In this document: positions 7,045-44,541 of the stretch, in pieces
Layout of the letters: each line of letters opens with the position of its first letter
Position numbering within the stretch: the stretch's first letter is position 1
Assembly (NCBI RefSeq): GCF_026625745.1
Contig: NZ_CP113061.1
Span: 3,627,001-3,691,000, forward strand
DNA from: Asticcacaulis sp. SL142
GTDB lineage: Bacteria > Pseudomonadota > Alphaproteobacteria > Caulobacterales > Caulobacteraceae
DNA length: 64,000 nt
Direction: 5' to 3'
Program-made: the position numbers and the translations under genes
Notes under the pieces: model-generated
What the model was told of the DNA's origin: nothing
Database searches by the model: none
What the model saw: the letters and a program-made list of their open reading frames with translations, nothing else

Positions 7045-7057
7045 GAGATATGTCCTT

Positions 7058-8350: not shown

Positions 8351-8368
8351 GATCTCCTGGGCAAAAGG

Positions 8369-9448
8369 TCAGGTCTTGGCGTCACTCAGCGATTCCCGGC
8401 GGATAAGCGTCGACTCGACCATGGACGGCAGGTCGTCGGCCATCTCGCCGGATTTCAGCACCATTTCCGGCACCAACTTACGCACCGACAGCGCCCCCAT
8501 CTCGGCAATCGGCCAATGCACGGTCGTCAGCGATGGCCAGAGCTGCATGGCCACCGGCCCGTCATCGAAACCCACAATCGACAGGTCACCCGGCAGATTA
8601 AGCCCCCGTTCATGGGCGGCGCGCGTGACCCCGGCGGCCATCGAATCGTTGCTGGCGAAAATGACCGTGGGCGGTACAGGCGCGGTGAGCAGGACTTTGC
8701 CCGCCCTCACGCCGGACTCAAAACTGTACTCACCATCGGCAAAAAGAGTCTCATCCATCGGCAGACCGGCGTTTTGCAGGGCCTGCCGGAACCCGGCCTC
8801 GCGCTCACGGGCGGAGCGGAACCCCGCCGGGCCACGCACAAAGCCGATGCGGCGATGGCCCAGGGCTACCATATCCCGAACGACCGCCATAACGGCCTCA
8901 CGGTCGTTGGACCAGACACTGCGCGACATCATGTCGAGTTGGGCTGAGCCGACGCGGATATATTTGATGTTCATGCGCTGGCACAGTTCGCCGATATCGT
9001 CGCGCTCCGACAGAGGCGGCAGAAAGATGGCGCCCATGGGTTTTTGGCGGGTGAGGAAGGTCTCAATATCGCTCAAAAGGTGAGGTGCGCTGCGATCCAG
9101 TGGCCGTGCCGCCAGGGCGATTTCGCTGTCGGCTATGGCCGACAGTACCCCGCGCTGAAAGGTCATGGCCATGGGCGAGGTCGAGTCATGAATAAACAGG
9201 ACGATGACGAAATTCTTGCGAAACGCCAGAGCGCGCGCCTGTACATTCGGCACAAAGCCGAGCTGTTCGATGGCGGCTTCGACCTTGACCCGCGTGGAGG
9301 CTTTGAGCGCCTCACGGTTGATGACGCGGCTAACGGTCTTTTTCGACACGCCCGCCAGTTCCGCCACATCGGTGATGGTCGGCGCTGAGCCTGTTTTTCG
9401 CGGCAAGGCGACAATCGTCCCTGTCTTTTCCGTCCGTTTTTCGGTCAC
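8369..9448 (-). CDS. LacI-family transcriptional regulator
   Basis: 359 residues. The LacI helix-turn-helix and hinge lie at about residues 23-75 (PTITDVAELAGVSKKTVSRV, then NREALKASTRVKVEAAIEQL). A periplasmic-binding-protein-like ligand domain follows, with typical GHRRIGFVRGP, IFASNDSMAAGV and LSIVGFDDGP. It lies inside the lyase operon, 90 bases after the TonB receptor stop. The best candidate operators are the two perfect copies of TCGATACCGGTGTCAAT between the receptor and the esterase, whose ACCGGT centre has the CG dyad usual for LacI sites. The inducer is probably a uronate or unsaturated oligouronate, which is inference. Confidence 0.92.
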   Translation of the reverse strand: MTEKRTEKTGTIVALPRKTGSAPTITDVAELAGVSKKTVSRVINREALKASTRVKVEAAIEQLGFVPNVQARALAFRKNFVIVLFIHDSTSPMAMTFQRGVLSAIADSEIALAARPLDRSAPHLLSDIETFLTRQKPMGAIFLPPLSERDDIGELCQRMNIKYIRVGSAQLDMMSRSVWSNDREAVMAVVRDMVALGHRRIGFVRGPAGFRSAREREAGFRQALQNAGLPMDETLFADGEYSFESGVRAGKVLLTAPVPPTVIFASNDSMAAGVTRAAHERGLNLPGDLSIVGFDDGPVAMQLWPSLTTVHWPIAEMGALSVRKLVPEMVLKSGEMADDLPSMVESTLIRRESLSDAKT

Positions 9449-22328: not shown

Positions 22329-24875
22329 TCACGACTGAATGCCGAGTGCTGTCAATATCTTGCCGGACAGAGATTGCTTAACCTCAAATATATCCGCCCA
22401 CGGATCGGTTTTGAGGGTTGTGAGGCGCTTAGGCACCGTGGCAATGGTAAACTCATCCGGTTTAAGTTTGGGGGGCAACTCATCCCAGGCGATCGGCGTG
22501 GCCACGGTCGCACCATCACGGGCACGCACGGCAAAGGGGGCAATGGCGGTGGCGGTATAGTCGTTGCGTAGATAGTCGATGAAGACCTTACCTTTGCGCG
22601 CGGCCTTTGACGCCGTGGCGATATAGCGCTTAGGGTTATCGTGCGCCATCGACTGGGCAATGACGCGGGTAAAGGCCTTGATGGCGTCCCAGTCATGCTC
22701 AGGCATGATCGGCACGGTAACATGCAGGCCCTTGCCGCCGGTGGTTTTCAGGAAGCTTTGCAGGCCAAACTCAGCCATGCGATCGCGCACCTCGGTAGCG
22801 CCCGCGATAACATCCTCCCATTTGGCGTCTGGATCCGGATCGAGGTCGAAAATCATCCGGTCAGGCCGGTCATGACCCGAGGCCATGCAGCCCCACGGAT
22901 GGATTTCAATCACCCCCCATTGGATCAGGCTGATCAGGCCCTTGGCGTCTTCAATCATGATGTAGGATTCGCGCCGGCCCTTGACCTTGATGCCGCTGTC
23001 CTTGACGTGGGCCATTTTGGCCAGACCCATGTGGCGCTGGAAAAAGCAGTCACCACCAATGCCTTCCGGGCAGCGAATCATCGAGATCGGCCGTCCGGCA
23101 ATGTGGGGCAGGATATGGTCGGCAACGCTGAAGTAATATTGGGCGATATCGACCTTGGTGATATTCGTGCCTGGATAGACAATGCGGTCAGGGTGGGAGA
23201 TACGCACGCCGCCGACCTCAGAGTCTTTTGAGGACTTGCGCGGGGCAGTGGGTTTGGTTTTGGGGGCCACCCTGACCTCCTTTTCAGCTTCGGTCTCAGC
23301 CTTGGCGGTTTTGACGGCGTAGTCGCGGCTGACCTCTGTGGCCGGTTTGTCATCGCGCAGGCCCTGAAACGACGGGTGGCGCAGGCGGCCGTCTGAGGTC
23401 CACTCGCCGAACTGCACCTCGGCCACCAGCTTAGGCGTCACCCAGTTCGCCCCGCGTCGGGCCAGGGCCGGCACGCCCTCAAACGGATTATCATCAGCCA
23501 GGGTATCGAGGCGTCTGCGCAGGTCTATAGAGCTATCAGCCGTAAAACCGGTGCCGACCTTGCCCGCATAGATCAGGCGATCCTCGTCATAATAACCGAC
23601 CAGCAGCGCAGCGATGCCGCGTCCGCCCTTAGCGGGCAGGGTAAAGCCGCCAATGACAAATTCCTGACGCTTATGGCACTTGATCTTCAGCCACGACTTG
23701 CCGCGGCCTGAGCTATAGGGGGCATCAGCCCGTTTAGAGATCAGGCCCTCCATATCCATGTCGCAGATTTGCTGATGAAAGCTGTCGCCTTTTTTTGTAA
23801 AGTGCTCCGAATAGTTGATGCGATCATCGGTATCGGCGGCGTTCAGCATGGCTTCCAACTTGGCCTTGCGATCCAGCAGGGGCAGGGCGCGCAGGTCTTC
23901 GCCGTCCAGATGCAGGAAATCGAAAACGTAATATTGCAACGGGGCGCTATCCTCCCCACTCAAGGTCGCCTGCAGGGCTTTAAAATTGATGCGGCCATCA
24001 TCATCTACGGCCACGATTTCGCCGTCGAGTATGGCGGATTTTACCGGCAGACGGCCCAAAATTTCCGGCAGGGGCGCAAACTTGGCGGTCCAGTCTAACC
24101 CCGTGCGGGTTAGGAGGCGGGCGGTGCCATTCTCGATCAGCGCCTGTATTCGGTAGCCATCAAATTTGATTTCATGCACCCATTTATCGCCTTGCGGGAT
24201 GCTGACGGCCAAGGTCGCGAGTTCGGGCGGGACGAATTTGAGTTTCCCTGACTTGGCGGCCTTGGCAGGGGTGTCTTTTGGGCGCGAGTTCCAGACGTTA
24301 TTGCCCGCTTTGGCGATGTCGTCCATCGACCGGCCACTGATGATGGAGGTGGCCATAGTCTCCAGCCAGCTTTCCGCATCGTCTGTTGTGGATGCTTCAT
24401 CCTTATGCTTGATTAGCAGCCAGTTGGCGCGTCCCTTATCTTGCGGACGCGGTTTCATGCGCACCAGCGCCCAGTCGCCGGTCAAACGCTGCCCATGCAG
24501 CCGGAATTTGAGATTGCCGTCTTTTAAGCCCTTATGTGGGTCTTCCAGCGGCTCCCATGTCCCTTCGTCCCACATCATGACCGTGCCCCCGCCGTACTGG
24601 CCTTTGGGGATAATGCCCTCAAAACTGCCGTAACTGACGGGGTGGCCCTCGGTTTCGACCGCCAGCCGTTTATCATCGGGGTTGAGACTGGGCCCGCGGG
24701 TTACGGCCCAGGATTTCAGCACCCCGTCCAGTTCCAACCGGAAATCATAATGCAGACGGGTGGCGGCATGTTTCTGGATCAGGTAGCGAAATCCGCTGCC
24801 ATCGCCCAGCTTACCTTCCGGTTCGGCGGTTTTGGTAAAATCGCGCTTCTGATTATAAAGGTCGAGACTTGCCAT
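22329..24875 (-). CDS. ligD: DNA ligase D (NHEJ ligase/polymerase/phosphoesterase)
   Basis: 848 residues in the order phosphoesterase, ligase, polymerase. The phosphoesterase spans about 25-170 (HAATRLHYDFRLELDGVLKS, then GIIPKGQYGGGTVMMWDEG). The ligase starts near 215, with the adenylated lysine Lys237 in HEIKFDGYR and DGEIVAVDDDG, GLISKRADAPY and WLKIKC downstream. The polymerase/primase covers about 550-848, with SHPDRIVYPG at its start and LIQWGVIEIHPWGC, FDLDPDP and KTTGGKGLHVTVP. It joins double-strand breaks with Ku. It starts directly after the Ku stop (TAAATG), so the two are co-transcribed and probably translationally coupled. Confidence 0.95.
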   Translation of the reverse strand: MASLDLYNQKRDFTKTAEPEGKLGDGSGFRYLIQKHAATRLHYDFRLELDGVLKSWAVTRGPSLNPDDKRLAVETEGHPVSYGSFEGIIPKGQYGGGTVMMWDEGTWEPLEDPHKGLKDGNLKFRLHGQRLTGDWALVRMKPRPQDKGRANWLLIKHKDEASTTDDAESWLETMATSIISGRSMDDIAKAGNNVWNSRPKDTPAKAAKSGKLKFVPPELATLAVSIPQGDKWVHEIKFDGYRIQALIENGTARLLTRTGLDWTAKFAPLPEILGRLPVKSAILDGEIVAVDDDGRINFKALQATLSGEDSAPLQYYVFDFLHLDGEDLRALPLLDRKAKLEAMLNAADTDDRINYSEHFTKKGDSFHQQICDMDMEGLISKRADAPYSSGRGKSWLKIKCHKRQEFVIGGFTLPAKGGRGIAALLVGYYDEDRLIYAGKVGTGFTADSSIDLRRRLDTLADDNPFEGVPALARRGANWVTPKLVAEVQFGEWTSDGRLRHPSFQGLRDDKPATEVSRDYAVKTAKAETEAEKEVRVAPKTKPTAPRKSSKDSEVGGVRISHPDRIVYPGTNITKVDIAQYYFSVADHILPHIAGRPISMIRCPEGIGGDCFFQRHMGLAKMAHVKDSGIKVKGRRESYIMIEDAKGLISLIQWGVIEIHPWGCMASGHDRPDRMIFDLDPDPDAKWEDVIAGATEVRDRMAEFGLQSFLKTTGGKGLHVTVPIMPEHDWDAIKAFTRVIAQSMAHDNPKRYIATASKAARKGKVFIDYLRNDYTATAIAPFAVRARDGATVATPIAWDELPPKLKPDEFTIATVPKRLTTLKTDPWADIFEVKQSLSGKILTALGIQS

Positions 24876-25763
24876 TTAGCTGGCCTTTTTGCGCGGCGCT
24901 TTGGTGGAAGTTTTGGCGGTGGCGGGTTTGGCTTTCGTCGTCGTCTTGGGTTTGGCCTTTGCGGTGGGCTTTGTCGCTGGTTTGTCACCCTCTTTATCCT
25001 GCAAACTTTTGCGCAGGGCATCCATCAGGTTGATGACCTTGGCGGCTGGGCGATCCTCTTCAACGGCGGTCGGTTCACGGTTTTCGATCTTGGAATCAAT
25101 CAGGTCCTGCAAGGCCTGGCGGTAGTGATCCTTAAACTTACCCGCGTCGAAATTAGCCGTTTTGCGCCGGATCAGTTCCTTGGCCAAGTCCAGTTCTTCG
25201 GAGGATGCCTTGGCGTCGATATCTTCAAAATAAGGGTCCGATTCGCGCAGTTCATCCTCATAACGTAGGGTGTGCAGCAACAACCCGCTGCCGCAAGGCT
25301 TGACCGAACATAACCGCTCGCGCCCGCCGATCGCCAATTGGCCTAAGCCCACCTTTTTAGTCTGGCGCAGGGCATCGCGGATCACGGCAAAGGTGTCTTC
25401 GTCGGCTGATTTTTGCGGGGCGACGAAATAGGGGCTGTCGAAATAGATATCGTCAATGTCAGCCGCGGCGGCAAACTGCACGATATCGAGCGTGCGCAAT
25501 GACGGGATTTTCAAATCCTTGATCTCATCCGGTTCGATCAGGACATATTCACCCTTTTCAACCTCATAGCCCTTAATGATATCGTCGCGCTCGACCTCGG
25601 TGCCGTCGTCGGTGACGTTCTGGTGGCGGATTCGCTGACCAGTTTTGCGGTAGATTTCGTGCATGGCAATGGTGCGCGAACGATTGAGCGCCGAATAGAT
25701 ACTGACCGGCAAGGTCACCAGCGACATGCGCAAATTGCCGCTCCAATAGGGTCGCAAAGCCAT
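24876..25763 (-). CDS. ku: Ku DNA end-binding protein
   Basis: 295 residues. It starts MALRPYWSGNLRMSLVTLPV, the usual bacterial Ku opening, and carries the ring-forming core (RIRHQNVTDDGTEVERDDII, GYEVEKGEYVLIEPDEI, and LRYEDELRE) up to about residue 245. Residues 255-295 form a Lys/Ala/Thr-rich tail like those that bind DNA in bacterial Ku proteins. It binds double-strand ends and recruits LigD, which follows with no gap. It is divergent from an FAD oxidoreductase gene, 99 bases away. No regulator or sporulation signal is visible. Confidence 0.95.
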   Translation of the reverse strand: MALRPYWSGNLRMSLVTLPVSIYSALNRSRTIAMHEIYRKTGQRIRHQNVTDDGTEVERDDIIKGYEVEKGEYVLIEPDEIKDLKIPSLRTLDIVQFAAAADIDDIYFDSPYFVAPQKSADEDTFAVIRDALRQTKKVGLGQLAIGGRERLCSVKPCGSGLLLHTLRYEDELRESDPYFEDIDAKASSEELDLAKELIRRKTANFDAGKFKDHYRQALQDLIDSKIENREPTAVEEDRPAAKVINLMDALRKSLQDKEGDKPATKPTAKAKPKTTTKAKPATAKTSTKAPRKKAS

Positions 25764-27737: not shown

Positions 27738-28586
27738 TCAAGCCAACTGACATAGATCCAGTTCGTTGAAATCGCCGTAGTCGAGGTTCTCCCCGCCCAT
27801 CGCCCAGATAAAGGCGTAGTTGGATGTGCCGGCACCGCAATGGATCGACCACGGCGGACAGATCACGGCCTGCTCATTGGCGGCGATCAGGTGGCGGGTA
27901 TTGTCGGGCTGTCCCATAAAGTGAAACACCCGGTCATTGGCGCCCATATCAAAGTAAAAATAGGCTTCTGAGCGGCGGTCATGCAGGTGCGGCGGCATGG
28001 TGTTCCAGACGCTGCCGGGTTTAAGCAGGGTCAAGCCCAGCAGAAGCTGCGCCGATCGGCAGACGCGCGGTACGATCAACTGATGGATGGTGCGCTCATT
28101 GGAGGTTTCAAGGCTGCCGCGTTCCAGCGGCTGACTGTCCTTAAGGGCAATGCGCACGGTCGGGTAGGGTTGATGCGACGGGGTGGACGCCAGATAAAAG
28201 CGCGCCGGTTTGTCCGGGCTGTCGCTTTCAAACGATACATCACCGCTACCACTGCCGATATATAGCGCATCGAGCGGGGCAAGCGAAAACGCCACGCCGT
28301 CGACGCGCACAACACCCGCGCCTGAACCGACATTGACCACACCCATTTCCCGCCGGTCCAGCAGCGAGGTGCCGGCCGCCGAGGGCGGTTCGGTCAACCT
28401 CGGTAATGCCACCGCCGTGCTGACGGGGGCTGCCCCGCCGATGACGAGGCGTTCCTGATGGACATAGTTGAGCCGGATATCATCGGTCGCAAACAGATCG
28501 GTGATCAAATATCGATCTCGTAGGGCCTTGGTGTCAGCCGTCGCCAGTTGGTCAGGATGGGTGGCGTAATAGGTCTTATGAAACAC
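27738..28586 (-). CDS. kduI: 5-dehydro-4-deoxy-D-glucuronate isomerase (KduI)
   Basis: 282 residues matching KduI over the full length of about 280. The opening [20 protein letters not shown] and the cupin metal-binding segment [18 protein letters not shown] with its His and Glu ligands are clear, as are [20 protein letters not shown] and the ending near [20 protein letters not shown]. The enzyme converts the ring-opened unsaturated uronate from pectin to 3-deoxy-D-glycero-2,5-hexodiulosonate in the cytoplasm. It is the third gene of a tight operon (7-base gap to Ogl, 11-base gap from Ogl to GH105). The next enzyme, KduD, is not in the window. Confidence 0.96.
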
Positions 28587-28593
28587 GTTACAC

Positions 28594-29970
28594 TTAACCC
28601 TTCACAGGCGCGCGGGTCGGTTTGACCTCAACCGCATAGACATGGTTGTCACCGTGCATATTGGAGCAGAACACGATCCACTTATCGTCGGGCGTAAAGC
28701 GCAGATTGGGCTCCAGCCGGTAGTCGTGGGCCGACATATCGACCAGACGGGTGGAGGTGAACTTTTCAATGGTGATCAGGTCGTCATCATATGACGGCAG
28801 GTCGGCATCGACGATGGTGACGGCCTCCAGCAGTGATATCCATTTGCCATCGGGCGCGTGAGCCACCATGTCAAAATCACCGCCGTCGCTGGCAAAGGTC
28901 ACCCCGTCATGGGCGACGTTGAAGTGCACGCCCCAGTCGTTTTGTTCGACCCGTTTCCAGACGCGCTTGCCGGTCGCCAGTTCAAGACCTGCGACCCAGA
29001 ACACCTGACCGCGCGGCGTTTGCAGGTCAAACCACAGCCACTTGCCGTCCTGGCTGAAGAACTCATGGCCCCAGATTTCCATATTCATGGTGCGGGTGTG
29101 GACTGAGCGCAGGTTGGTGCCATCAGCATTGATCAGCTTGATGCGATCCACCCGGTGCCACGGCCCTTCCATGCAAAAGCGGATCAGATTCGGATCGGTC
29201 GGTGAAAACTGGGCGTGGCCGATCCATTCTTCGGTGCTGTAGATGACTTTGCGCGTGCCGGTCTTGATGTCGATGGTAAACAGCTCGGCGGGCACACGCG
29301 AGGCCCAGCGCTCCAGCATCCGCACACCCTTCGCCTTGGCGAAGTTGAGCGGCTTACCGTCGGGCCCAAGGGCGGCATATTCGGCCTGACCGAACTTTTC
29401 AAGGCTGTCCTTGTCCTTGGGCTGCAACGGTTTGGCACCGTATGCGACCGTGCCGAGCAGCACCGTGTCGTCAGCGTTCATGGCGCTGATCTGACCGGCA
29501 GGGATGCGGGCGACCTGACGCTTTTTCTTCGTGTCGATATTGATGGCAAAGATGGTCTTGGGCCGGTCGGCGGGCAGGGCCTCACCCGCATCGGTGACGG
29601 CGTAATAGATGTCGCGCGATTTACGGGCGGCGAACAAAAGGTCATTCCCTGCGCCGGTAACCAGCGGTGTCACTTTCCAGGTTTTGAGATCAACCGTCTG
29701 AATGCCGGTCGGCGATTTGATGACCATGATATCGCCCTGCGGCGTGTAGACATGGCGGTAGAAGTACATGCCCTGCGCACCGGCCTCTTCCGACACACGG
29801 ATAATGCGGTGGCCGGTTTTGGGGTCTATCCAATCTTTCGGGATTGGGCCTGCAGGCTTTGCAGGAGTCGCGGGCGCGGTTTGCGCGCTGGCCTGCGTCA
29901 TCGACATACCAATAGCCGAGGCTCCGGCCAGAAAGCCTTTGAGGGCGGTGCGGCGTGTTCCGGTGGTCAT
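28594..29970 (-). CDS. ogl: Oligogalacturonate lyase family protein (PL22-like)
   Basis: 458 residues. The first 30 contain [20 protein letters not shown], a twin-arginine-type signal, so it appears exported, while the classical enterobacterial Ogl is cytoplasmic. The seven-bladed propeller has the family start [20 protein letters not shown] and the metal-binding [20 protein letters not shown], with [14 protein letters not shown] and [19 protein letters not shown] further on. It should split unsaturated digalacturonate or short oligomers into monomers used by KduI (next gene). Gene order is GH105-DUF4861, this gene, then kduI. Confidence 0.93.
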
Positions 29971-29981
29971 GGCGGTACTCC

Positions 29982-32219
29982 TTACTTAACGGGCGCGAAT
30001 GAAAAGGTCTGGGACTTCACAAAGGCGTCCCATGCCTCACGCGATTTGAAATCAAGCCCGCCGTCCCAGGCCGAGCCCATGTAGTAGGTAAAGGGCTTGC
30101 CCGGTGTGACCTTCAGCAGGATCAGGTAGTTTTCAGCGTCCTCAGTGAAGCCTGTGACCATGGCCGGATCAGCGGCGATGGTAATGCCGATGCTGCCGTT
30201 GACGCTGGCCGGTTCCCAGAAGCTCAAAGTCCCGGATTTGGCATCCTTGGTGACGATGCCATTGCCCGCATCGCCTTTGCGTTTGATGATGCCAATGGCG
30301 ACGATCAGCGGATCTTTGGTATCCGAAGAGATGGTCGAGGTCATGCGCGTGAAGTTCGACCCCAGCGGCAGTGAAAACGTCCGTGTCTCCCAGACTTTGC
30401 GCGTTACATCGACCGGCCACGGGCGGTAATCAACCTTGAATTTGGCTTCGTCCCCGCCGGTTTTCAGGATCTCATATGTGCTGAAATTACGCGATGTCCA
30501 CAGCTTATTGTCATACCAGATGCCAAGCCCACCCGCCCCGCGGCCACGCCCGACATCGTAATAATCTAAGCCTTCGCCGCGATCGACGTGGTAGTTCGGG
30601 AACTTAAGCTGGCGGTCCATATAGGGGTAGCGCACGCGCTTCGCCCAGACATCAATGCCGGAGCCGGACGGGGCTTCGCGGGCTTCCAGAGCGGGGCCAT
30701 AGATGCGGTGGGCGACCTTATCATTTTCCCAAAGCAGGTCATCAAACCGGTCGGGCGCAAAGCGGGCGACGGCGCGCGGGGTGTGATCAGCGGGCGGAGT
30801 CAGTTTTTCAACATTGGCCGGGCGTTTTAGCGTGGCCGGATCGTAGGCGAGGGCGCGGGTCGCGCGCATTTCGGCAGCGCGGCGCTTTTTCTCTTCGTCG
30901 CCAATGACCGTCACCGGCGCAATCGGCTGCGGCGTGGTGGCAAAGATCGTGGCTTCATCGTCGCGGGCCGGTTCGGCTTCGGGCAGGGCCTGCGTTGCCC
31001 CATTCAGATTCATGACCTCGATCCCGGCCAACAGATAAGCCCCTGTCGCATAGGGCCCGACATCCTCGGCTTTGGTGGGCACCGGGCGGTCGCCGGTCTT
31101 TTGCGCCGCGCCGATCAGACCGTTGGCCAGGACATGGCGGTTAAGCGCCGCCCAGCCTTTGAGTGCTGACGGTTGATAGGTCGCGCGGTCGAGCAGGCCG
31201 TGGTTGATCCCCCAGGCCAGGGCATAAACAAAGAACGCCGAGCCCGACGTTTCCGCTTCGGGGAAAGACTTCGGATCGTTGAGATCGGTCGCCCACAGGC
31301 CGTCGGGGCGTTGTAAGTCTTTGATGCGGGCCGCCATCTTGGTGAAGGTGGTGACGTAAAACTCGCGGCCCTCAAAATCCGCCGGCATGGACTCCAGCGT
31401 GCGCGCCAGCCCCCCCATGACCCAGCCATTGCCGCGTGACCAGTAGATCGGCTGGCCACCCGCGCCCTTATGATGTTCGTCCTTAAAGCGCTCATCCCGC
31501 AGGAACAGGCGGTCGTCTTCGACCCACAGGCGGGCTGCCGTGCGCCGCCATTCCTTATCCATCGCCTTGAGGTATTTCATATCACCGGTCAGCGCGGTCT
31601 GACGCGCCAGAACGGGCGGGGCCATATAGAGCGCGTCACACCACCACCAGATCAGGCTTTCCGTCTCCTGAGCGCGGTTCAGGTGCGGCACCATGTAATC
31701 CAGACGCTGCTGCAAGGGCATGATCACGCCTTGCTGGCCACGGCGGGCATAGATTTCCTGATAGAGATCACCAATCGCCACATCGTCGGCATTGAGCAGC
31801 AGGCGCTCGGCCCGCGCGCCGCGAAAGGCGTAGTTATAGTGTTCGGCAGTGGCGGTCAAAAACCGCAGAATGTCTGTATTGTCGGACTCGCGCGCCAGAC
31901 GCGCTGCGCCGACATAGAAGGTGGCGGCCACCCAGTTGGACGAAATTTCCGACAGGTTTGAGCCGGTCGAAAGCTGGATGGGGCGGCGGCTCATGTCAGC
32001 GATTTGCGACGCAGCGACATAGTCCAGCGCGGACAAAACGGACTGACGCGACGGGACGCTGGCCGGCGAAAACTCAAGATCGGGTCGTGCGGGGGGGGTA
32101 AGCCAACGGGTCTCAATACCAGCCACCTGAGCAGGGGCGGACGTTTGCGCATAGGCGGGTATCGCGCCGATCATGGCCAGTGACAGGGCTGAGGACAGCA
32201 TAATCGCGCGCATATTCAT
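29982..32219 (-). CDS. GH105 unsaturated uronyl hydrolase fused to DUF4861
   Basis: 745 residues with a signal peptide (MRAIMLSSALSLAMIGAIPA). Residues about 60-400 are GH105 (SNWVAATFYVGAARLA, ADDVAIGDLYQEIY, WWWCDALYMAPP with the catalytic-position Asp195, then YWSRGNGWVMGGLA). Residues about 455-745 match DUF4861 (RFDDLLWENDKVAHRIYGPA, GLDYYDVGRGRGAGGLG, and DGGLDFKSREAWDAFV). GH105 removes the unsaturated uronate left by lyases from pectin or rhamnogalacturonan fragments. DUF4861 has no function known to me but occurs in pectin loci. It begins the Ogl-KduI operon and lies just past the TonB receptor terminator. Joining both in one protein suggests they act on the same fragment. Confidence 0.93.
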   Translation of the reverse strand: MNMRAIMLSSALSLAMIGAIPAYAQTSAPAQVAGIETRWLTPPARPDLEFSPASVPSRQSVLSALDYVAASQIADMSRRPIQLSTGSNLSEISSNWVAATFYVGAARLARESDNTDILRFLTATAEHYNYAFRGARAERLLLNADDVAIGDLYQEIYARRGQQGVIMPLQQRLDYMVPHLNRAQETESLIWWWCDALYMAPPVLARQTALTGDMKYLKAMDKEWRRTAARLWVEDDRLFLRDERFKDEHHKGAGGQPIYWSRGNGWVMGGLARTLESMPADFEGREFYVTTFTKMAARIKDLQRPDGLWATDLNDPKSFPEAETSGSAFFVYALAWGINHGLLDRATYQPSALKGWAALNRHVLANGLIGAAQKTGDRPVPTKAEDVGPYATGAYLLAGIEVMNLNGATQALPEAEPARDDEATIFATTPQPIAPVTVIGDEEKKRRAAEMRATRALAYDPATLKRPANVEKLTPPADHTPRAVARFAPDRFDDLLWENDKVAHRIYGPALEAREAPSGSGIDVWAKRVRYPYMDRQLKFPNYHVDRGEGLDYYDVGRGRGAGGLGIWYDNKLWTSRNFSTYEILKTGGDEAKFKVDYRPWPVDVTRKVWETRTFSLPLGSNFTRMTSTISSDTKDPLIVAIGIIKRKGDAGNGIVTKDAKSGTLSFWEPASVNGSIGITIAADPAMVTGFTEDAENYLILLKVTPGKPFTYYMGSAWDGGLDFKSREAWDAFVKSQTFSFAPVK

Positions 32220-32330: not shown

Positions 32331-35300
32331 TCAGAAGGTCGTGGTTACACCCACATAGTAACGGCGACCGGAGTACAGAGTATCGAAGACGTATGGGGTA
32401 CCTCCGCCAATGTCACGCAGTTCGTCCGGCGCATAACGGGTGACGGTATCATCCAGCAGGTTCTTGCCTTCGATGAAGAACTCAAGGTTCTTATTGACCT
32501 TATAAGAGGCGCGGCCATCCAGAGACTTTGAGCCGTTCTTATAGACGGGGGTAACCGTCTTGAAGTAACTGGTGGCACCGCCGGCGGGTGGCAGGTCTAT
32601 GCCGATAGCGTTTTGAACCGCTTCGGTAGGCACACGGTTTGTACCTTCGGAAGCGTCGATACGGTTATAGTAGAAGTCCCGTTCCTGATAGGCGATACGG
32701 GCGTTGATACGGCCGTCATCATACCAGAAGTTGATATTGTAGTAGTAGCTTGATTGATTGATCGGAGGCAAAGGCTTGCCGGTCAGCGGATCGACGGCCG
32801 TGTAGCTGGCGTTGTCTTCTGTGGTCGAGTAGTTGAATCCACCGCCTGTATATCTCAGGAAGCTGGGCAGGAACGTAAAGGCGGTACGGGCGGCGACTTC
32901 GAAGCCGGTTTGTTTCAGACCGCCATCGCCATCCCGATAGGTGGGGGCGATATAGGTGTTGCCTTCCAGTTCATATTCCGGAAGCACAACATCATCATCA
33001 GGCCGTCCGGTTTTGACGTCGATAGAGTAGGTTCCAACGCTTACCTGGGTATCGCGGTTCGGATACCATTCCAGCGACAGGTTTTGAGTGGTGGCTTCAT
33101 AGCCTTTAAGCTCCGGGTTGCCGATACGGCCTGAGCATCTCTTTTCGCTGACAGGTTCGCTCTCAACGTCAGCATCGGCATCATTCCAGTAGCCGGGGAA
33201 GGCTACGCCCAGTTCTTCCAGGGTCGCCTGGTCGGCGGCGCTGATGAAGTTACAGGTGGATGCCGATGTGCCGGTAAGCTGGGTCATGCTGGGCCGGGCG
33301 CGTTGTTTTGCGCTCGCATAGCGGATAACCAGTTGATCTTCGATCGGCCAGATCGCCAGGTTGAAGCTCGGCAGGAAGTCTTCGGATTCGCGGGAAATTT
33401 CCGTTGTCCGGCGTGAGACCAGTGTGGTGACCGTCGGGTCGACACCCACAGCACCGGCACGGATCGCGGCAATGTCCACGGGATCAAGCGTGGTTGTCTG
33501 GAAGTTAACCGAAGGGGCCGCCTCAACCTTGATCTTCTGATAGCGGACGCCGAGGTTACCCATGACATCCATACCAAACAGGCGGGTTTCAAAGTCACCC
33601 ATTAGGTAGGCTGACGTGGTCAGTTCTGTGGTCGAGTAGCTGGGGCGCGTATAGGTCTTGCCGTCCGAAGCGATACATTCATACAGGCAATCAAGATTGT
33701 GCGCGCTGAGATCAGCATACTTGCTCAGAGTGCCATAGAAATCATCGAAATCAAACGCTTTCCAGGAATCTATCAGGCTGCCGCGATCGGGCATACCGTT
33801 GAAATAGTTGGCGCCGGGCAAGGTGATCAGGCTGTTGTTGATCAACTCTTCATACTGAGCTCGCGTCAGCATATGTTCCTTTTCCAGTCGATCCTGACTG
33901 GTGCTGATCGTATTGATGGTGGTGGAACCGAACTGACAGTTGGCATTGGTGACGGTCGGGTCGCAGAACTTGACATAGTCAAGGCTTCTGGCGCGAGACA
34001 GGGTGACACCCGGCGCAATCAGGAAGCCACCTTCACGCCATGTCTGGTTCTCACGATTGGTATGAGAGCCACCGAACTTAATGGATTTCAGCGGCCCGAA
34101 ATTATCGAAGCTACGCGTCACATCCATCTGATAGTTCCACTCTTTGTTCTTATCTGCCTGAGGTGTGTACTCAAGACGTGCCGTTGTGCCGGGGTTTTGG
34201 AAGACGCCGGGACGCACGCCGCCCAAGCCTGTTGAACGGTTGTCAGGGGCGGTTGGGTAGTATGACGCGGGGTTGTTCAGATCGAAGTTAGGCACCTCGA
34301 AGGTCCAAAGGCCATTTTCCGGGATCATATAGAAGCGCGCCTGAGGAATGGAGGCGATGATCTTAAAGGCATCGTCTTCGCGTTCACCCTTGGCAAAACC
34401 GTATTGGATACGGGCTTTCGCGACCCACTGATCGCGTTTGAAATCGGCACCGACCTGGGAATAGTGCTGCTCATTGGTGCGCTGAATGTCACGAACCTGG
34501 CTGTCGTAGTTCAAGGTAGTAACGCCGTTACCTCTGATCAGGTCGTACTGCGTGACGTAGTGGTTTTCATTGACCACGACGTTACGCATATTGGTGGACA
34601 ATATGCCGGAGGCGTTGGTCGATCCGGTCGGGGCTATGATTTGCAGGTTATAGGCCTGAAAATCCTGCTTGCGAATATTCGGGTTATATGAGGCAAAAAT
34701 GGTCAGGTCGTCGTTTACACGGTAGTCCGCACGCAACTGGAACGAGGTGCGGGTATCGCGGCGGTTTTCACGACGCATACGTGGCAGGGACGGCGTAAAG
34801 TCTTCCCATTGCGCATAGCAGTTCAGACGGCTGTTGATACCAGTGGTGGGCAGGGCCGCACAACCGGCCTTGGTCGTGACGGCTGCGGCTACCGGGTCAT
34901 ATGGTGTGGTAAAGGATTTTTCCGGCGAATTGTCGTGATCGCCAAAGGGTTGGTAGCCAACCTGCTTGTCCGACACGCTGTTGAAATCGGTTGAGGTGCG
35001 GGCATCGTCATAGGTGGCGTTGAACAAAACCCCCAGACGACCATCAAGGAACTTGCGCGTGAAAATAGTGTTGATGCGCGGCGACCAGTGACCATCCAGC
35101 GTATTCTTTTGATACTGAACATTTAACTTATACAGCGGCTTGGCGAAATCCAGACCGTTACGCTGCTCGATCTTGACCGTGCCGCCGACGCCGCCGGAAC
35201 GCATGTCAGCGGTCTGACCCTTGATGACGTCCACGCTCTTGATCAGATCGGACGACATATCGCCCAGTCCGGTGACCGAACGACCGTTTTGCGAGTCGGT

Positions 35301-35687
35301 TGGCAACATGGACATGCCGTCAACTTCGATGCGGATAAGATCGGCGGCCTGACCGCGGATCGTAAAGCCGCCGGTATCGCCGGAATCGGTGACGTCGAGG
35401 GCCACACCGGCGATGCGGGCGATGGCTTCACCGACGTTCTTGTCCGGGAAGTTGCCGACGTCATCAGCGACGATCGAATCCTGAGTGGTGGCGGCGCGTT
35501 TTTTACGATTGATGGCCGATTGTTCAGCTCTACGGGCGCCGACGACGATAACTTCCTGCACATCGTCCGTGGTGGTGGCTTCCGGTGCCGTCGTCGCAGC
35601 GTCCTGTGCCTGGACGGTTCCCGCCAGCGCTATCGACATCGCCAGCGCCGAAGCGCCCAGCAAATATTTAAATTCCTTGTGTTTCAT
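32331..35687 (-). CDS. TonB-dependent receptor (pectin locus)
   Basis: 1,118 residues, signal peptide LLGASALAMSIALAGTVQAQ. The TonB box-like EVIVVGARRAEQSAINRKKR leads to a plug with GDTGGFTIRGQAADLIRIEV. The barrel ends YSGRRYYVGVTTTF with terminal Phe. It carries four or more Cys in extracellular loops (for example NLDCLYECIASDG), unusual for this class and maybe forming disulfides. There is no STN domain. It has its own promoter region with an operator core shared with the first locus (35741-35751), and lies between the GH28/PL10 pair and the GH105 operon. Likely cargo is an oligogalacturonide or rhamnogalacturonan fragment. Confidence 0.92.
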   Translation of the reverse strand: MKHKEFKYLLGASALAMSIALAGTVQAQDAATTAPEATTTDDVQEVIVVGARRAEQSAINRKKRAATTQDSIVADDVGNFPDKNVGEAIARIAGVALDVTDSGDTGGFTIRGQAADLIRIEVDGMSMLPTDSQNGRSVTGLGDMSSDLIKSVDVIKGQTADMRSGGVGGTVKIEQRNGLDFAKPLYKLNVQYQKNTLDGHWSPRINTIFTRKFLDGRLGVLFNATYDDARTSTDFNSVSDKQVGYQPFGDHDNSPEKSFTTPYDPVAAAVTTKAGCAALPTTGINSRLNCYAQWEDFTPSLPRMRRENRRDTRTSFQLRADYRVNDDLTIFASYNPNIRKQDFQAYNLQIIAPTGSTNASGILSTNMRNVVVNENHYVTQYDLIRGNGVTTLNYDSQVRDIQRTNEQHYSQVGADFKRDQWVAKARIQYGFAKGEREDDAFKIIASIPQARFYMIPENGLWTFEVPNFDLNNPASYYPTAPDNRSTGLGGVRPGVFQNPGTTARLEYTPQADKNKEWNYQMDVTRSFDNFGPLKSIKFGGSHTNRENQTWREGGFLIAPGVTLSRARSLDYVKFCDPTVTNANCQFGSTTINTISTSQDRLEKEHMLTRAQYEELINNSLITLPGANYFNGMPDRGSLIDSWKAFDFDDFYGTLSKYADLSAHNLDCLYECIASDGKTYTRPSYSTTELTTSAYLMGDFETRLFGMDVMGNLGVRYQKIKVEAAPSVNFQTTTLDPVDIAAIRAGAVGVDPTVTTLVSRRTTEISRESEDFLPSFNLAIWPIEDQLVIRYASAKQRARPSMTQLTGTSASTCNFISAADQATLEELGVAFPGYWNDADADVESEPVSEKRCSGRIGNPELKGYEATTQNLSLEWYPNRDTQVSVGTYSIDVKTGRPDDDVVLPEYELEGNTYIAPTYRDGDGGLKQTGFEVAARTAFTFLPSFLRYTGGGFNYSTTEDNASYTAVDPLTGKPLPPINQSSYYYNINFWYDDGRINARIAYQERDFYYNRIDASEGTNRVPTEAVQNAIGIDLPPAGGATSYFKTVTPVYKNGSKSLDGRASYKVNKNLEFFIEGKNLLDDTVTRYAPDELRDIGGGTPYVFDTLYSGRRYYVGVTTTF

Positions 35688-35783: not shown

Positions 35784-37217
35784 TTAGGTCAGACCGGTTA
35801 TATTTTCGGTATTCTCCAGAATGATCTTCCCCCCGTTTTGGGCCACGATCCGGCTGCGGGCGACATGCACGTTGCGGGCGTGGCGAATGACGCCGAACTG
35901 AGCGGCTTCGATATCGATGTCCTCAAGGTGGATGTCCGAAAGCGGTGCGTCCGGATAGGCCTCAAGCTCGATGGCGGTTTTCAGCCCGCGCGCTCTGACG
36001 CGGCTGATGTGGATGTCGTGGACCTGCGGCAGGCCCTTATCCTTGGGCACCTGCGTGGTCAGGGTTGTCCAGTAGGACGGGTAATCGGTCAGGTCGTCCG
36101 GAATCTTGGCGTAGGAATAGGCCGGAAACCAGTTGAGGTTGATGCGAATGCCGGTTTCGGCCTCACTCACGTCGATGTCGCGGATATGGATGTCTGAGGC
36201 CCTGCCGCCGCGCGTGGCGGCCGATTTAAACAGTATGCCGTAACGCACTGGCCCGACGACCTTAAGGCCGTAAACCCGTACATTGCGGATGCCGCCGGAG
36301 GTTTCCGACCCAAACGTGATTCCGGCATAGGCGGTGCGCACGGTTGAGTTGCGGATGACGACATTCTCGGTCGGGCGGTTGACCCTCAAGCCATCGGCGT
36401 CGCGTCCGGCCTTAAGGCACAGGGCGTCGTCATTGGCGTCGATATCGGCATTTTCGACCAAGACCGTATGGGAGGAATCGATGTCGACGCCGTCGGTCGA
36501 CGGGCCCTTGCCATCAACGTTGTTGCGTACCGTAATGCCAGAGACTTTGACATTGTTGGAATAGACGACCTGCACCGTCCAGAAACCGGAGCGGGTCAGC
36601 ATCAGGCCGCCGCCCAGTTCGACGCGACTGGAATTATAGATCTGGATCAGGCGCGGGCGCTTGGCGTCATAATCGGCCGCCCAGCGCAGGCCACGGGCTT
36701 CGTAATCATAGCGGATCGAATTGAAGCGCTCCCAGAACACCTTGCCATTGCCGTCGATCGTGCCTTCACCATAGATTTTGACATCGCTTTGGCCGTAGAC
36801 ATTGAGCAGGGCCGACGGCCACGACAGCTCAATCCCCGCGATGCGCGTCGGCATATCCGGATAGCCCGCGATATCCTGCTCACCCATCAGGGTCACGCCC
36901 TTATCAAGACGAAGCGCCATGCCGGATTTCAGGAACAAAGATCCGGTCAGATAGGTGCCGGGTTTGAGCACCAGAGTGCCATGAACCGCGGCTGTGGCGT
37001 CAATGGCCCGTTGCAGGGCGGCGGTATCATTGGTGATGCCGTCACCTTTAGCACCGTAGGCTGATGCGTGGATAACCGCGTCGGTCAGGTCCTTCGGAGC
37101 GTCAATGGCGATGTCGTCGGCATCGGCGGCAAGTGCTGGCACGCCCAAGCCAAAGCCCGTCGCCGCCACCGTAGCGCAGGTCATTTTCAGGAAAAGGCGT
37201 CGCACGAAAGGGGCCAT
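35784..37217 (-). CDS. GH28 polygalacturonase-family protein
   Basis: 477 residues from the ATG at 37217, chosen because it overlaps the stop of the preceding pectate lyase gene as TAATG; a longer frame adds seven residues. The start APFVRRLFLKMTCATVAATG is a Tat-like signal. GH28 motifs follow: the nucleophile-region STDGVDID with Asp242, the paired DD (263-264) in ANDDALCL, then ITFGSETSGGIRNV and YGILFKSA. The usual GHG is GSE here, as in some exo-acting and rhamnogalacturonan members. It should hydrolyse polygalacturonate or rhamnogalacturonan outside the cytoplasm. PL10 lies directly upstream in one transcript. Confidence 0.92.
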   Translation of the reverse strand: MAPFVRRLFLKMTCATVAATGFGLGVPALAADADDIAIDAPKDLTDAVIHASAYGAKGDGITNDTAALQRAIDATAAVHGTLVLKPGTYLTGSLFLKSGMALRLDKGVTLMGEQDIAGYPDMPTRIAGIELSWPSALLNVYGQSDVKIYGEGTIDGNGKVFWERFNSIRYDYEARGLRWAADYDAKRPRLIQIYNSSRVELGGGLMLTRSGFWTVQVVYSNNVKVSGITVRNNVDGKGPSTDGVDIDSSHTVLVENADIDANDDALCLKAGRDADGLRVNRPTENVVIRNSTVRTAYAGITFGSETSGGIRNVRVYGLKVVGPVRYGILFKSAATRGGRASDIHIRDIDVSEAETGIRINLNWFPAYSYAKIPDDLTDYPSYWTTLTTQVPKDKGLPQVHDIHISRVRARGLKTAIELEAYPDAPLSDIHLEDIDIEAAQFGVIRHARNVHVARSRIVAQNGGKIILENTENITGLT

Positions 37218-38512
37218 TACGGGTTCGCAGCCTTCCATGCCAGATAGGCGTCAATGGCCTTTTGCGGGCTGTTGCCGTACCAGGAATAGCCGTTGCGGCG
37301 GCCCTTGGAGATTTCATTGACATCGTTATGGATGAACTTACTCCAGTCGCCGAAGATCGGCTTACCCGTCCTGATGTCGTAATTGCGCGACCAGATCGGC
37401 CCAGCACCGGGCTTGGCGATCAGCTTACGGCCTTCTTCGGGACTGACCGAGGTAAAGGCCACGTCGTAAACCGCATGATCTTTGAGCCATTGAACGCCGG
37501 TATGGACCGCCGCTTTGAGTTGGGGTGAGGGGTTGGATTGGCGCATCAGGAACAGCAGAACATCGCTGCTTTCGGCGCTGGCCAGCGAGCGTGGCTCATA
37601 GTTGCGGGCCGAGATGGGCTTTAAAGTCAGAGCATCGACCTGCTGCGGCCAGACGGTCTTTTTGCCGTTCACAACCACCTGCGAGTCCAGAATGATCTTG
37701 ACGGCGCGCGCGCTGGCGGCTCCAGCCTTCTGGCGCAGTTCCGCAGGCACAAAAGCGAAATCGGCATGGCCTTCGGCGACGTCTTCTAAAATATCAGCGG
37801 CCTTGGCCACCGCATTGTCATTAAAGGTGATGCCGTCATGGAAGCCTCCCTCCAGCGGATAGTTCTGCGGCCAGCCGCCATTGGGGTACTGGGCCATCAG
37901 CAGGTAGGTCACGCCCTTAATGATGCTGGCGCGGTAGGCGTCACCCTCGGCACCCGGTAACTGCGCCTGAACCTTGCCCAAAAAGCGCATTTCGGTGGTG
38001 GTGGCGTCGTTATCGAGCGTGCCGACAAAGGTCCAGAACTGGTCGCGCGGTTCATCAAAGCTGCCGGTGCCGACCGTCATGGTCTCGGCATTATTACTAT
38101 AGCGCTGGCCTTTGAGACGCGGCGGTTTGGTGCGATCCTGATTCTTGCTCCAGCCGCCGGACGGGGTTTGAAAGCTGACGATCGTATCGGCTATCGCGCG
38201 CGCCTCAGCCGTGGCATACCACGCTGCGTCCTTATTCAGCACCATCTTGCCGCTGCCCGCGGTAGGTGGGGGCGGGGCGGCCTCGCCGGGTTGAAGCTCT
38301 GCGGCCAAGGTGGCGCGGTCAAAGGTCATCTGCTGCTCGGACCTCAGAATATAGGCGCTCCACGCCGCGCGATCCGCCTCAGCCACCTCACTCAGGCGTG
38401 TCACACTGACCTCAGTCGCCGGGGTATTGACCCCGATGACCGCCGCCGTGGCGTGCGCTGCAAACACCATTCCGATTACCGGGATTGCGCCCGACCATCT
38501 ACCCAGTTTCAT
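37217..38512 (-). CDS. pelA: Pectate lyase, PL10 family
   Basis: 431 residues, signal peptide ending ATAAV near residue 26. The PL10 core covers about 125-425: QTPSGGWSKNQDRTKPPR, GSFDEPRDQFWTFVGTLDND, MAQYPNGGWPQNYPLEGGF, and the Arg-containing RNGYSWYGNSPQ block. The N-terminal region (about 30-120) is less conserved. It cleaves polygalacturonate by beta-elimination, giving unsaturated ends for GH105, Ogl and KduI. It starts the two-gene operon with GH28 (TAATG overlap). The upstream 347-base gap has no operator like the one before the TonB receptors. Confidence 0.94.
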   Translation of the reverse strand: MKLGRWSGAIPVIGMVFAAHATAAVIGVNTPATEVSVTRLSEVAEADRAAWSAYILRSEQQMTFDRATLAAELQPGEAAPPPPTAGSGKMVLNKDAAWYATAEARAIADTIVSFQTPSGGWSKNQDRTKPPRLKGQRYSNNAETMTVGTGSFDEPRDQFWTFVGTLDNDATTTEMRFLGKVQAQLPGAEGDAYRASIIKGVTYLLMAQYPNGGWPQNYPLEGGFHDGITFNDNAVAKAADILEDVAEGHADFAFVPAELRQKAGAASARAVKIILDSQVVVNGKKTVWPQQVDALTLKPISARNYEPRSLASAESSDVLLFLMRQSNPSPQLKAAVHTGVQWLKDHAVYDVAFTSVSPEEGRKLIAKPGAGPIWSRNYDIRTGKPIFGDWSKFIHNDVNEISKGRRNGYSWYGNSPQKAIDAYLAWKAANP

Positions 38513-42267: not shown

Positions 42268-44541
42268 TTAAAGCGAAGGTCGGATACCTTCGACCTTGAC
42301 CTTCCAGTCCTTGGGGAAGCCGGGGGCGTGGCCGGTCTGGTCGTCCCAGCCACCGGCCATCAGGGCAATCGCCAGCAACAACCCACCATTTGACGGGAAA
42401 TAGGTTTCCGCCGCCCGCTGATAGCCATGCCCGTCAAGGCCCGCGTCGGCCTGCACACCCGCACCCGTCGCGGTCGGCACGAACGCGGCGGCATGGGCAT
42501 CCAGATGGACGCGCGGGGTCATGCCGCTTGTGCCAAATTTATTGTTTTTGGCGTCGAAAAACAGCCAGTCGATGGCCTCATCCGGCGCGCCCAACCGTGT
42601 GGCGGTCATGGCCATCATCGGATAGTCCCAGCCCCAGGTCTGACGCAGATCCCAGTCACGCTTCATCCGGTCGAGTGTATTACGCATCACCGGTTTATCG
42701 ACATCGCGTCCGGGCAGCCAGCCGAGCGGCATCAGGAACGACATGTGGTCGCGGTTCTGGCAGGTCTCGGCAATCGCATTGCTTTTGCAGGTATCTGCCG
42801 CCTTATCCCAGAAACCGGGTTCTGAGCCGACCGGCAGGTAAAGCCCGTCCTTTTGCGGCAGGTCCGGCCATTTGGCCAGAACCGCGTCCCAGTCGGCGCG
42901 GCGCGGCTGACCCGTTCGTTCGCGCCAGCTTTGGGCGGTCTCGATCCCCCAGCGGAAATAGGCCAGTTCAAACATCGGATTAAAAGTGGTCAGCGGCGGG
43001 AAGTTTTCCTGTACCGGAATAACCGGCGGGCCGAGGCGATAGCGACCGGATGCGGTATCCAGTACCATGATCGAGGCCAGCAGATCGGCGCTGTCCTCGA
43101 CCAGTTGGCCATAGGTTTTCAGGACTCGTTGATCGCCGCCAGCACGATAAAGCAATTCCGACATATAGATCGGGTGCGGCTGCTGCCACAGGATGAAGGG
43201 AGAGACTTTTGAGGGGCTGTCGGCACCATCAGGGCCGATCATCTTGGGCCACCACGCGCCCTTGACACCCTGTTCGTCGGCGCGGACGCGGGCCTTGGGC
43301 AGGAAGGTGGTATACCAGCCGAGGCTTTTCTCCAGCAACTGCGGTCGACCCCACAGGGCAAAATGTGCCGAATGCCACGGATGCATCTCAAGGTGCGACT
43401 TGCCGTTCCAGCTATTGGAAAACAGCCCTTCTTCCTGCGGCGGGAAGGCCCCTGCAGCATTCACGGCCATCAGATATTGCGACAGGATAATCCGGCGTTC
43501 CAGTTCGGTCGCGCGCGGATCGGGGCTGCCCGCCAGCTCGACCATGCCGCCGTTTGACCAATAGTCGCGCCAGTGACGCTCCGCCGCCGTTTTCGCGTCC
43601 GCTGGGCTGGGCAGGTCGAGGGCAGGGGTATTGGCAAACGCCGCCGTGACCGTCAGGGTTTTGGCTTTTGAGGTGGCGCGATAGGTGTGGGCTTCAGCTT
43701 TTTCGACGGACGCACCGGGGGCATGGATGCGGCTGTAATAGACCGTGTCATCAATCTGGCGTTTCAGGCGGATATCGCCAGCCTTGCGCGAAACTTCAGT
43801 CGTGCTGTGGCCATCAGGGTTTGTCCAGTCTGACGGATCGGGATTGAGGGATTTTGATACGCCGGGAAAGCGCACGGTCACACCCAATCGGTCCTGCGCC
43901 ACCAGAGCGGAGGTCACCTCGGCCATGATCGCATCCTGATCGGCCAAGACGCGGGTCACAACTGTGACGGCCTCGCCATCGTATATAAACCGGCTGGTCA
44001 GGGTGCCGGTCCACATATCCAGCGTCTGATGCGTGTCTTTTATATCCGCGAATTTTGCAGGCGTGCCGTCCCTGGCGCGCAGGTCGAGCGACACCCGCCC
44101 CAGAGAAAAGCGGTGCGGGTTTTCGCGGATGTAGGCTATGGCCGGATTGGTCGCCGCGTCGGCCCAGTCCTTAATATAGCCATAGCGGCGGGTGTGGCCG
44201 TTCACCTCGATCGGGACTTGAGTGTCAGCGACGGTGTAGCCGTTTGGATTGGGAAAGCTATGCCAGGCCCATTGGGCTTCGGTCAGCAGGGGCGCGATTT
44301 TACTATAGGGTTCGGTGAAGGTCTGAAGGCCGGTGATGTCGGCGGTAAAGCCGATATTGCCGTTGCCCAGCATCAGGGGGGCATGAGGATCGATTGTCGT
44401 CAAAACCGGATTATGGCGCCGGACCAGACGTTCGCGATCTATCCGGCCTGCGCGGGCAGCGTGGGCGGGCGGGCTGAGCAGAGAGGCGCTTGCCGCGGCG
44501 GCAGCGGTCATCATCAGGTGTCGGCGCGAAAGATTCGGCAC
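42268..44541 (-). CDS. Tat-exported (alpha/alpha)6 glycoside hydrolase-like protein
   Basis: 757 residues. The N-terminal SRRHLMMTAAAAASASLLSP is a good Tat signal. The beta-sandwich domain (about 50-320) with MLGNGNIGFTADITGLQTF resembles GH95/GH65-type enzymes. The helical barrel from about 335 contains FSNSWNGKSHLEMHPWHSAH, then WWPKMIGPDGADSPSKVSPF, RDHMSFLMPLG and ETYFPSNGGLLLAIALMAGG. The acid is probably the Glu in SHLEMH, but I cannot confirm it. The pair with DUF4450 in the pectin locus suggests removal of a side-chain sugar such as rhamnose, fucose or galacturonate. The specific family is uncertain. Confidence 0.8.
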   Translation of the reverse strand: MPNLSRRHLMMTAAAAASASLLSPPAHAARAGRIDRERLVRRHNPVLTTIDPHAPLMLGNGNIGFTADITGLQTFTEPYSKIAPLLTEAQWAWHSFPNPNGYTVADTQVPIEVNGHTRRYGYIKDWADAATNPAIAYIRENPHRFSLGRVSLDLRARDGTPAKFADIKDTHQTLDMWTGTLTSRFIYDGEAVTVVTRVLADQDAIMAEVTSALVAQDRLGVTVRFPGVSKSLNPDPSDWTNPDGHSTTEVSRKAGDIRLKRQIDDTVYYSRIHAPGASVEKAEAHTYRATSKAKTLTVTAAFANTPALDLPSPADAKTAAERHWRDYWSNGGMVELAGSPDPRATELERRIILSQYLMAVNAAGAFPPQEEGLFSNSWNGKSHLEMHPWHSAHFALWGRPQLLEKSLGWYTTFLPKARVRADEQGVKGAWWPKMIGPDGADSPSKVSPFILWQQPHPIYMSELLYRAGGDQRVLKTYGQLVEDSADLLASIMVLDTASGRYRLGPPVIPVQENFPPLTTFNPMFELAYFRWGIETAQSWRERTGQPRRADWDAVLAKWPDLPQKDGLYLPVGSEPGFWDKAADTCKSNAIAETCQNRDHMSFLMPLGWLPGRDVDKPVMRNTLDRMKRDWDLRQTWGWDYPMMAMTATRLGAPDEAIDWLFFDAKNNKFGTSGMTPRVHLDAHAAAFVPTATGAGVQADAGLDGHGYQRAAETYFPSNGGLLLAIALMAGGWDDQTGHAPGFPKDWKVKVEGIRPSL

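Follow-up and report, generated by a model that had tools for sequence, protein, structure and literature searches.

Unsaturated monouronates are converted to their 5-keto form by KdgF, a small cupin. Unsaturated uronyl hydrolases of family GH105 are represented by solved structures such as YteR and 4ce7 from Nonlabens ulvanivorans, and two dehydratases have been described to work ahead of such hydrolases. The ulvan dehydratase P29_PDnc, for which Asp, Arg and Lys have been proposed as catalytic residues, prepares the ends on which P33_GH105 acts (excerpts of PMC8511951), and its gene has been reported with 622 residues (excerpts of PMC6168547). Similarly, the glucuronate dehydratase BcGDH (GH154, i.e. 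DUF2264) prepares ends for GH88 in the breakdown of chondroitin (excerpts of PMC12269599). A search of open-licence PubMed Central, which lacks most subscription papers, yielded no relevant paper on DUF4861, PF16153 or BT3233, nor on a uronate mutarotase. Here we describe a protein in which a GH105 hydrolase and a DUF4861 domain are joined, and we use the genomic context of the DUF4861 family to derive what this domain may do.

The window, i.e. the whole stretch of 64,000 nucleotides of Asticcacaulis sp. SL142 that was analysed, carries a pectin locus that includes the following genes (coordinates are window positions):

27738-28586, reverse strand: KduI, 5-dehydro-4-deoxy-D-glucuronate isomerase (383.8 bits against a cut-off of 250)
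28594-29970, reverse strand: PL22-like oligogalacturonate lyase, 11 bp past the stop of the fusion
29982-32219, reverse strand: GH105-DUF4861 fusion gene, 745 aa, export predicted
32331-35687, reverse strand: TonB-dependent receptor, upstream of the fusion
35784-37238, reverse strand: GH28 polygalacturonase family, upstream of the fusion
37217-38512, reverse strand: pectate lyase (PF09492, TIGR02474), PL10 (309 bits against a cut-off of 189.8)

The KduI gene follows the PL22 gene after 7 bp. The first-pass annotation of this DNA had proposed fragments of rhamnogalacturonan as substrates for an activity test; the joint presence of the PL10 pectate lyase, GH28, PL22 and KduI suggests, at the level of gene content, that the locus targets homogalacturonan instead. 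A homologue of the pectate lyase, the GH28 protein or the PL22 protein of the window is found in 25 of the 27 related fused loci (L001-L023, L025-L027 and L030), the exceptions being L012, which lies near a contig end, and L023.

Three other features of the window deserve mention. Adjacent LigD and Ku genes (bacterial end joining; 22329-25763, reverse strand) lie close to the pectin locus. A 757-aa ORF (42268-44541, reverse strand) gave no Pfam, NCBIfam or credible PDB match, and has a homologue in 15 of 56 DUF4861 loci. In a second polysaccharide region (5344-9448, reverse strand), a gene of the alginate lyase family PF05426 sits beside one with the pectate-lyase fold and a LacI regulator; homologues of this PF05426 gene neighbour DUF4861 in Sphingopyxis.

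The fusion ORF starts with ATG, runs without interruption and can be divided as follows:

32145-32219, reverse strand: Sec-type signal peptide, residues 1-25 (read by eye)
31008-31937, reverse strand: GH105 (PF07470) domain, residues 95-404 (Pfam match)
30819-31007, reverse strand: linker, residues 405-467, parts of it with low predicted confidence
30009-30818, reverse strand: DUF4861 (PF16153) domain, residues 468-737, short form (Pfam match; predicted supersandwich fold)
30531-30731, reverse strand: conserved stretch with W497, E498, R505, Y507, D523, K527, H544, D552, G561 and G563 (alignment)

The earlier description, of one exported 745-residue protein with a complete GH105 domain followed by DUF4861, stood up well, with a qualification for the second half. 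The N-terminus (MNMRAIMLSSALSLAMIGAIPAYAQ) was judged by eye to be a Sec signal, in line with export. The GH105 half belongs to its family by the curated PF07470 cut-off across the catalytic domain (E 7.9e-65, 219.6 bits against 26.6, profile positions 28-350 of 352). Its Asp195, the catalytic Asp of the WWxD motif, aligns with the catalytic Asp143 of YteR and is Asp in 38 of the 39 rows filled at that column; the D143N entry of YteR also appears in the structural comparison of the whole fusion model. The second half likewise belongs to DUF4861 by the PF16153 gathering score (E 7.3e-54, 183.6 bits against 22.3), the match covering profile positions 100-370 of 380, so that the first ~100 positions of the family are absent. 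Separate DUF4861 genes of Alphaproteobacteria lack the same positions and begin at about the same point, and the domain is therefore a short form rather than a damaged copy. It falls outside the NCBIfam equivalog BT_3233_fam (NF058564), with 220.5 bits and thus below the cut-off of 320. At E 0.01 the fusion matches PF07470 and PF16153 only, and neither PF10022 (GH154/DUF2264) nor PF01263.

The union of the two domains in one ORF is common. A search for related loci returned 79, and 28 of them encode both domains as a single ORF; these come from Asticcacaulis, Brevundimonas, Niveispirillum, Sphingomonas, Croceibacterium and one Verrucomicrobia bin. Searches of whole genomes added 16 distinct fused ORFs, the one in the window included, to give 44 distinct ORFs (49 counted minus five duplicates). 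An artefact of assembly or frameshift is ruled out by this number. In one locus (L150) the order of the domains is reversed, i.e. DUF4861-GH105, and in another (L123) DUF4861 is joined to a pectinesterase domain, an arrangement that was confirmed there and on the basis of which the similar ORFs in L127 and L128 were labelled DUF4861-CE8. Together with two trees that favour separate origins, these observations argue that GH105 and DUF4861 were not joined by chance. The DUF4861 tree (95 rows; L078 and L109 were left out as degenerate) requires nine changes between the fused and the separate state, with at least six forced by the starred branches for the separate state, and the GH105 tree (67 rows) requires nine changes, at least seven of them forced. 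Both trees were computed by quick searches and leave many forks open, so that they give the number of events in outline only; three such changes may, for instance, represent one gain and two losses. Unions of GH105 and DUF4861 are likely already present in public domain tables. Gene calls in the high-GC loci were based on codon-position GC.

The clearest case of independent formation lies in the same Asticcacaulis genome. The GH105 half of this second fusion (L080; C1:1191875-1193800) groups with sphingomonad GH105s that have DUF4861 as a separate gene, and its DUF4861 half lies in the other deep clade. The mixed ancestry of this protein (with that in L106) and the reversed order in L150 rule out an origin by a single fusion. 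In L028, GH105 and DUF4861 are encoded separately, with a four-base overlap between the two genes; the GH105 groups with a fused one and retains a linker-like tail, and the DUF4861 groups with separate ones.

Other GH105 proteins are extended in different ways. A Pseudoduganella ORF of 1353 aa (L024:7271-11332, forward strand) contains a GH105 domain 83.5% identical to that of the window and no DUF4861, with about 970 residues without identified domain ahead of GH105. Bacteroidota ORFs of ~1190-1200 aa (L058, L066 and L078) carry GH105 at the C-terminal end, behind about 880 residues without identified domain. Acidobacterial GH105 ORFs (L060:9707-11806 and L070:9476-11680, both forward strand) have an extra C-terminal stretch that, judged by motifs, we take to resemble two VOC/glyoxalase domains; such a partner could act on the released keto-uronate.

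The tie between DUF4861 and GH105, in fusions as well as between operon partners, extends far beyond chance. Of 27 Proteobacterial loci with a separate DUF4861 gene, which span up to about 21 kb, 22 also contain a GH105 ORF. In Bacteroidota, DUF4861 occurs at 83 places in 60 of 296 sampled genomes, and for at least 26 of these places a GH88/105 gene is found no more than 500 bp away, without exception on the same strand, and for at least 42 within 10 kb, where 0.13 and 0.92 would be expected at random if the clustering of genes and phylogeny are ignored. At the level of genomes, PF07470 is present in 59 of the 60 Bacteroidota with DUF4861 versus 42 of the 236 without (p 3e-33, ignoring kinship and with at most six candidates scored per genome). 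The phylum of the Verrucomicrobia bin (G385) has DUF4861 in 46 of 194 sampled genomes.

The neighbours of DUF4861 were also compared at places without a listed GH105. Among the matches listed, 41 of the 83 Bacteroidota places have no GH105 within 10 kb, and from these 20 windows, mostly the best-scoring, of ~17 kb each (one of 12.8 kb) were drawn and compared with 20 control windows taken at round coordinates in the same genomes. KduI, UxaC or UxuA was found in 12 of the 20 case windows versus none of the 20 controls (Fisher p 2e-5); Pfam searches on representatives confirmed KduI, UxaC and UxuA, as well as KDPG aldolase, PfkB kinase and parts of TRAP transporters. A single control (L207) contained other uronate genes, namely DctM, DctP, KDG kinase, KDPG aldolase and two SDR matches. 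Six of the 20 case windows (L172, L176, L179, L184, L186 and L188) gave no match to any query protein; within this group, L176 holds a rhamnogalacturonan lyase, L184 a GH28 and L188 a DUF2264 gene. In L184, a Bacteroidota locus, the GH28 and DUF4861 genes (6641-8002 and 7989-9278, both reverse) share 14 bases. Windows of this kind, in which no gene of uronate catabolism was matched, speak against the role on uronates proposed below. Other loci place DUF4861 among such genes: in L037 the genes for KduI, a KduD-like SDR and a PfkB kinase run directly into DUF4861, and in L191, L178 and L180 it forms part of operons for the catabolism of monomeric uronates or for TRAP transport.

The occurrence of DUF4861 in uronate operons without GH105, as well as next to GH154-type dehydratases and PF05426 lyases (a homologue of the PF05426 protein of the window is found in 14 of the 27 separate-gene loci), implies that the common element is the uronate, likely the product of GH105. 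The source of the unsaturated ends varies from locus to locus (PL10/PL22, PF05426 or DUF2264), but DUF4861 is retained, and GH105 and KduI are met again and again. This variable source, the recurrent GH105 and KduI, and the genes for monomeric uronates and their transport fit a role of DUF4861 on the uronate after its release more naturally than one on the polymer. The first-pass annotation had suggested that DUF4861 acts on, or binds, the same unsaturated fragment as GH105: the connection with GH105 was borne out, the single pectin fragment was not and gives way to the uronate itself, and, as far as sequence and gene context go, 'acts on' appears better supported than 'binds'.

Binding is the content of a quite unlikely alternative, in which DUF4861 would be a non-catalytic carbohydrate-binding or tethering domain that holds GH105 on uronate-rich chains. 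It would account for the fact that DUF4861 is fused to more than one type of enzyme and on either side, and the supersandwich fold predicted for DUF4861 is often that of an accessory domain. Nevertheless, most members of the family stand alone (in 93 of 146 DUF4861 ORFs, duplicate loci included, neither GH105 nor an assigned pectinesterase is attached), the presence of DUF4861 in the operons for monomeric uronates or TRAP transport (L191, L178 and L180) speaks against a chain-binding module, and its invariant residues are charged rather than aromatic.

These residues were derived from 133 distinct DUF4861 domains from Proteobacteria, Bacteroidota and the phylum of G385. Glu498, Asp523, Lys527, Asp552, G561 and G563 (numbering of the window protein) are invariant in all 133, and Arg505 (131), Tyr507 (131), Trp497 (130) and His544 (128) nearly so. 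All ten are kept in the 48 fused copies, and the conserved polar residues whose loss from fusions would have spoken against a function there show no variation in either the fused (48/48) or the separate (85/85) copies.

The AlphaFold2 model of the DUF4861 domain alone is good (pLDDT 88.4, pTM 0.89) and adopts a galactose-mutarotase-like supersandwich. Its best structural matches are the N-terminal domain of GH65 (VIA Z 14.0) and GH38 (13.9); YidC (12.6), the PL12 lyase HepC (12.4) and galactose mutarotase GalM (4bze; Z 12.4, rmsd 3.6, 197 aligned) also appear, GalM as one of many supersandwich chains. Since this fold also occurs in non-catalytic domains, even in YidC, it does not by itself indicate a function; the model is compatible with a mutarotase and no proof of one. 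Solved structures, when searched with DUF4861 by phmmer and by profile, yielded nothing credible, and hhalign found no match to aldose 1-epimerases, for which the profile was shallow. By its model DUF4861 shares the fold of Aldose 1-epimerase (PF01263), and it lacks the sequence match, and a shared fold does not amount to membership. How the two domains are arranged relative to each other in the full-length model should not be relied on (pTM 0.61; whole-chain matches to two-domain lyases have an rmsd over 20).

The C-terminal domains of PL12 and PL17 lyases have the fold predicted for DUF4861, which raises the option that DUF4861 is a lyase or hydrolase that cuts the glycosidic bond next to the uronate and thereby supplies the substrate of GH105. 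The invariant acidic and basic residues could serve such catalysis. In PL12 and PL17 lyases, however, a helical domain contributes most of the active site, and DUF4861 has no such domain. The loci, moreover, often already contain a lyase, and we regard this option as very improbable.

The main enzymatic rival would place DUF4861 one step earlier, as a uronate dehydratase that makes the 4,5-unsaturated end from a saturated terminal GalA or GlcA for GH105. The two oligosaccharide dehydratases known so far each have a GH105 or GH88 hydrolase as partner, as far as the excerpts of PMC8511951 and PMC12269599 describe, and the invariant Asp and Lys and nearly invariant Arg of DUF4861 are similar in kind to the Asp, Arg and Lys proposed for P29_PDnc; the pairing of DUF4861 with GH28 (L184) and with pectinesterase also fits a supply of saturated ends. 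The spacing of the mutated residues of P29_PDnc, when sought in the ORFs of L001-L079, gave only chance matches with three mismatches. Against this role stands the position of DUF2264, the family of the beta-glucuronate dehydratase BcGDH, whose gene comes immediately after DUF4861 or the fusion in nine distinct Proteobacterial loci (L034, L035, L036, L038, L039, L041 and L107, and the fusions L080 and L106) and lies 340 bases before DUF4861 in L188; the DUF2264 protein of L038 and the copy in the Asticcacaulis genome match PDB entries 9o4u, 9nwf and 8oi4. In coordinate order, the locus of the second fusion consists of GH2, a 944-residue ORF, an IclR regulator, DUF2264, GH105-DUF4861 and KduI; outside the 944-residue ORF, none of the scanned proteins belongs to a lyase family. 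A second dehydratase beside DUF2264 would look redundant unless the substrates differ, and in the window the lyases already make unsaturated ends. A dehydratase is for these reasons demoted rather than dismissed: it is unlikely, and less so only if DUF2264 and DUF4861 act on different sugars.

Taken together, we consider DUF4861 to be a uronate enzyme paired with GH105, with a probability of roughly 0.7; that it is catalytic at all is our inference. The fusion would then be a periplasmic protein of two enzymes. Its GH105 half, judged by family and locus, would hydrolyse the terminal 4,5-unsaturated galacturonyl residue from the products of pectate lyase, and its DUF4861 half would take over the uronate handled by GH105. 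A mutarotase-like or ring-opening reaction on the released 4-deoxy-5-keto-uronate before uptake fits the fold, the export and the neighbours, and we put it forward tentatively, at somewhat less than even odds; in other hosts DUF4861 would perform the same reaction on free uronates, and its product would be what the cell takes up and KduI then uses. The most far-reaching version, which we hold as speculative, is that DUF4861 constitutes an exported uronate-processing family with Glu498, Asp523, Lys527 and Asp552 as candidate active site and represents a periplasmic step, hitherto unassigned, between the hydrolysis of unsaturated uronyl residues and uptake, the window protein being bifunctional and passing 4-deoxy-5-keto-uronate between its active sites. 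The fusion noticed in the first-pass annotation is thus real and informative, and its meaning was guessed in the right direction, the biochemical step being a prediction.

The link of DUF4861 with uronates, the four invariant polar residues and the natural fused and separate versions together make the function directly testable. DUF4861 is present in roughly one in five of the Bacteroidota genomes sampled and one in four of those of the G385 phylum, and its function would complete the picture of how pectin and further polysaccharides of uronic acids are used by bacteria of the gut, of soil and of freshwater.

Among described systems, the GH105 hydrolases are closest to the first half of the fusion: the nearest solved structure is 4ce7, an unsaturated rhamnoglycuronyl hydrolase (E 1.5e-63), and, for 4ce7 and YteR, nearly the whole domain aligns, the catalytic Asp included, and the predicted fold matches. 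The solved relatives are chains of 359-445 residues, whereas the fusion carries DUF4861 in addition. With the DUF4861/BT3233 family (PF16153, NF058564) the second half shares a score above the PF16153 cut-off and all invariant residues; it differs in the missing N-terminal ~100 positions, a score below that of the equivalog and the junction with GH105. BcGDH resembles the proposed arrangement in that it acts on uronates together with an unsaturated uronyl hydrolase, and genes of its family adjoin DUF4861, but it belongs to another family, to which the fusion has no PF10022 match. P29_PDnc is, like DUF4861, a partner of GH105, and KdgF acts at a point of the pathway that is similar to the step proposed here for DUF4861.
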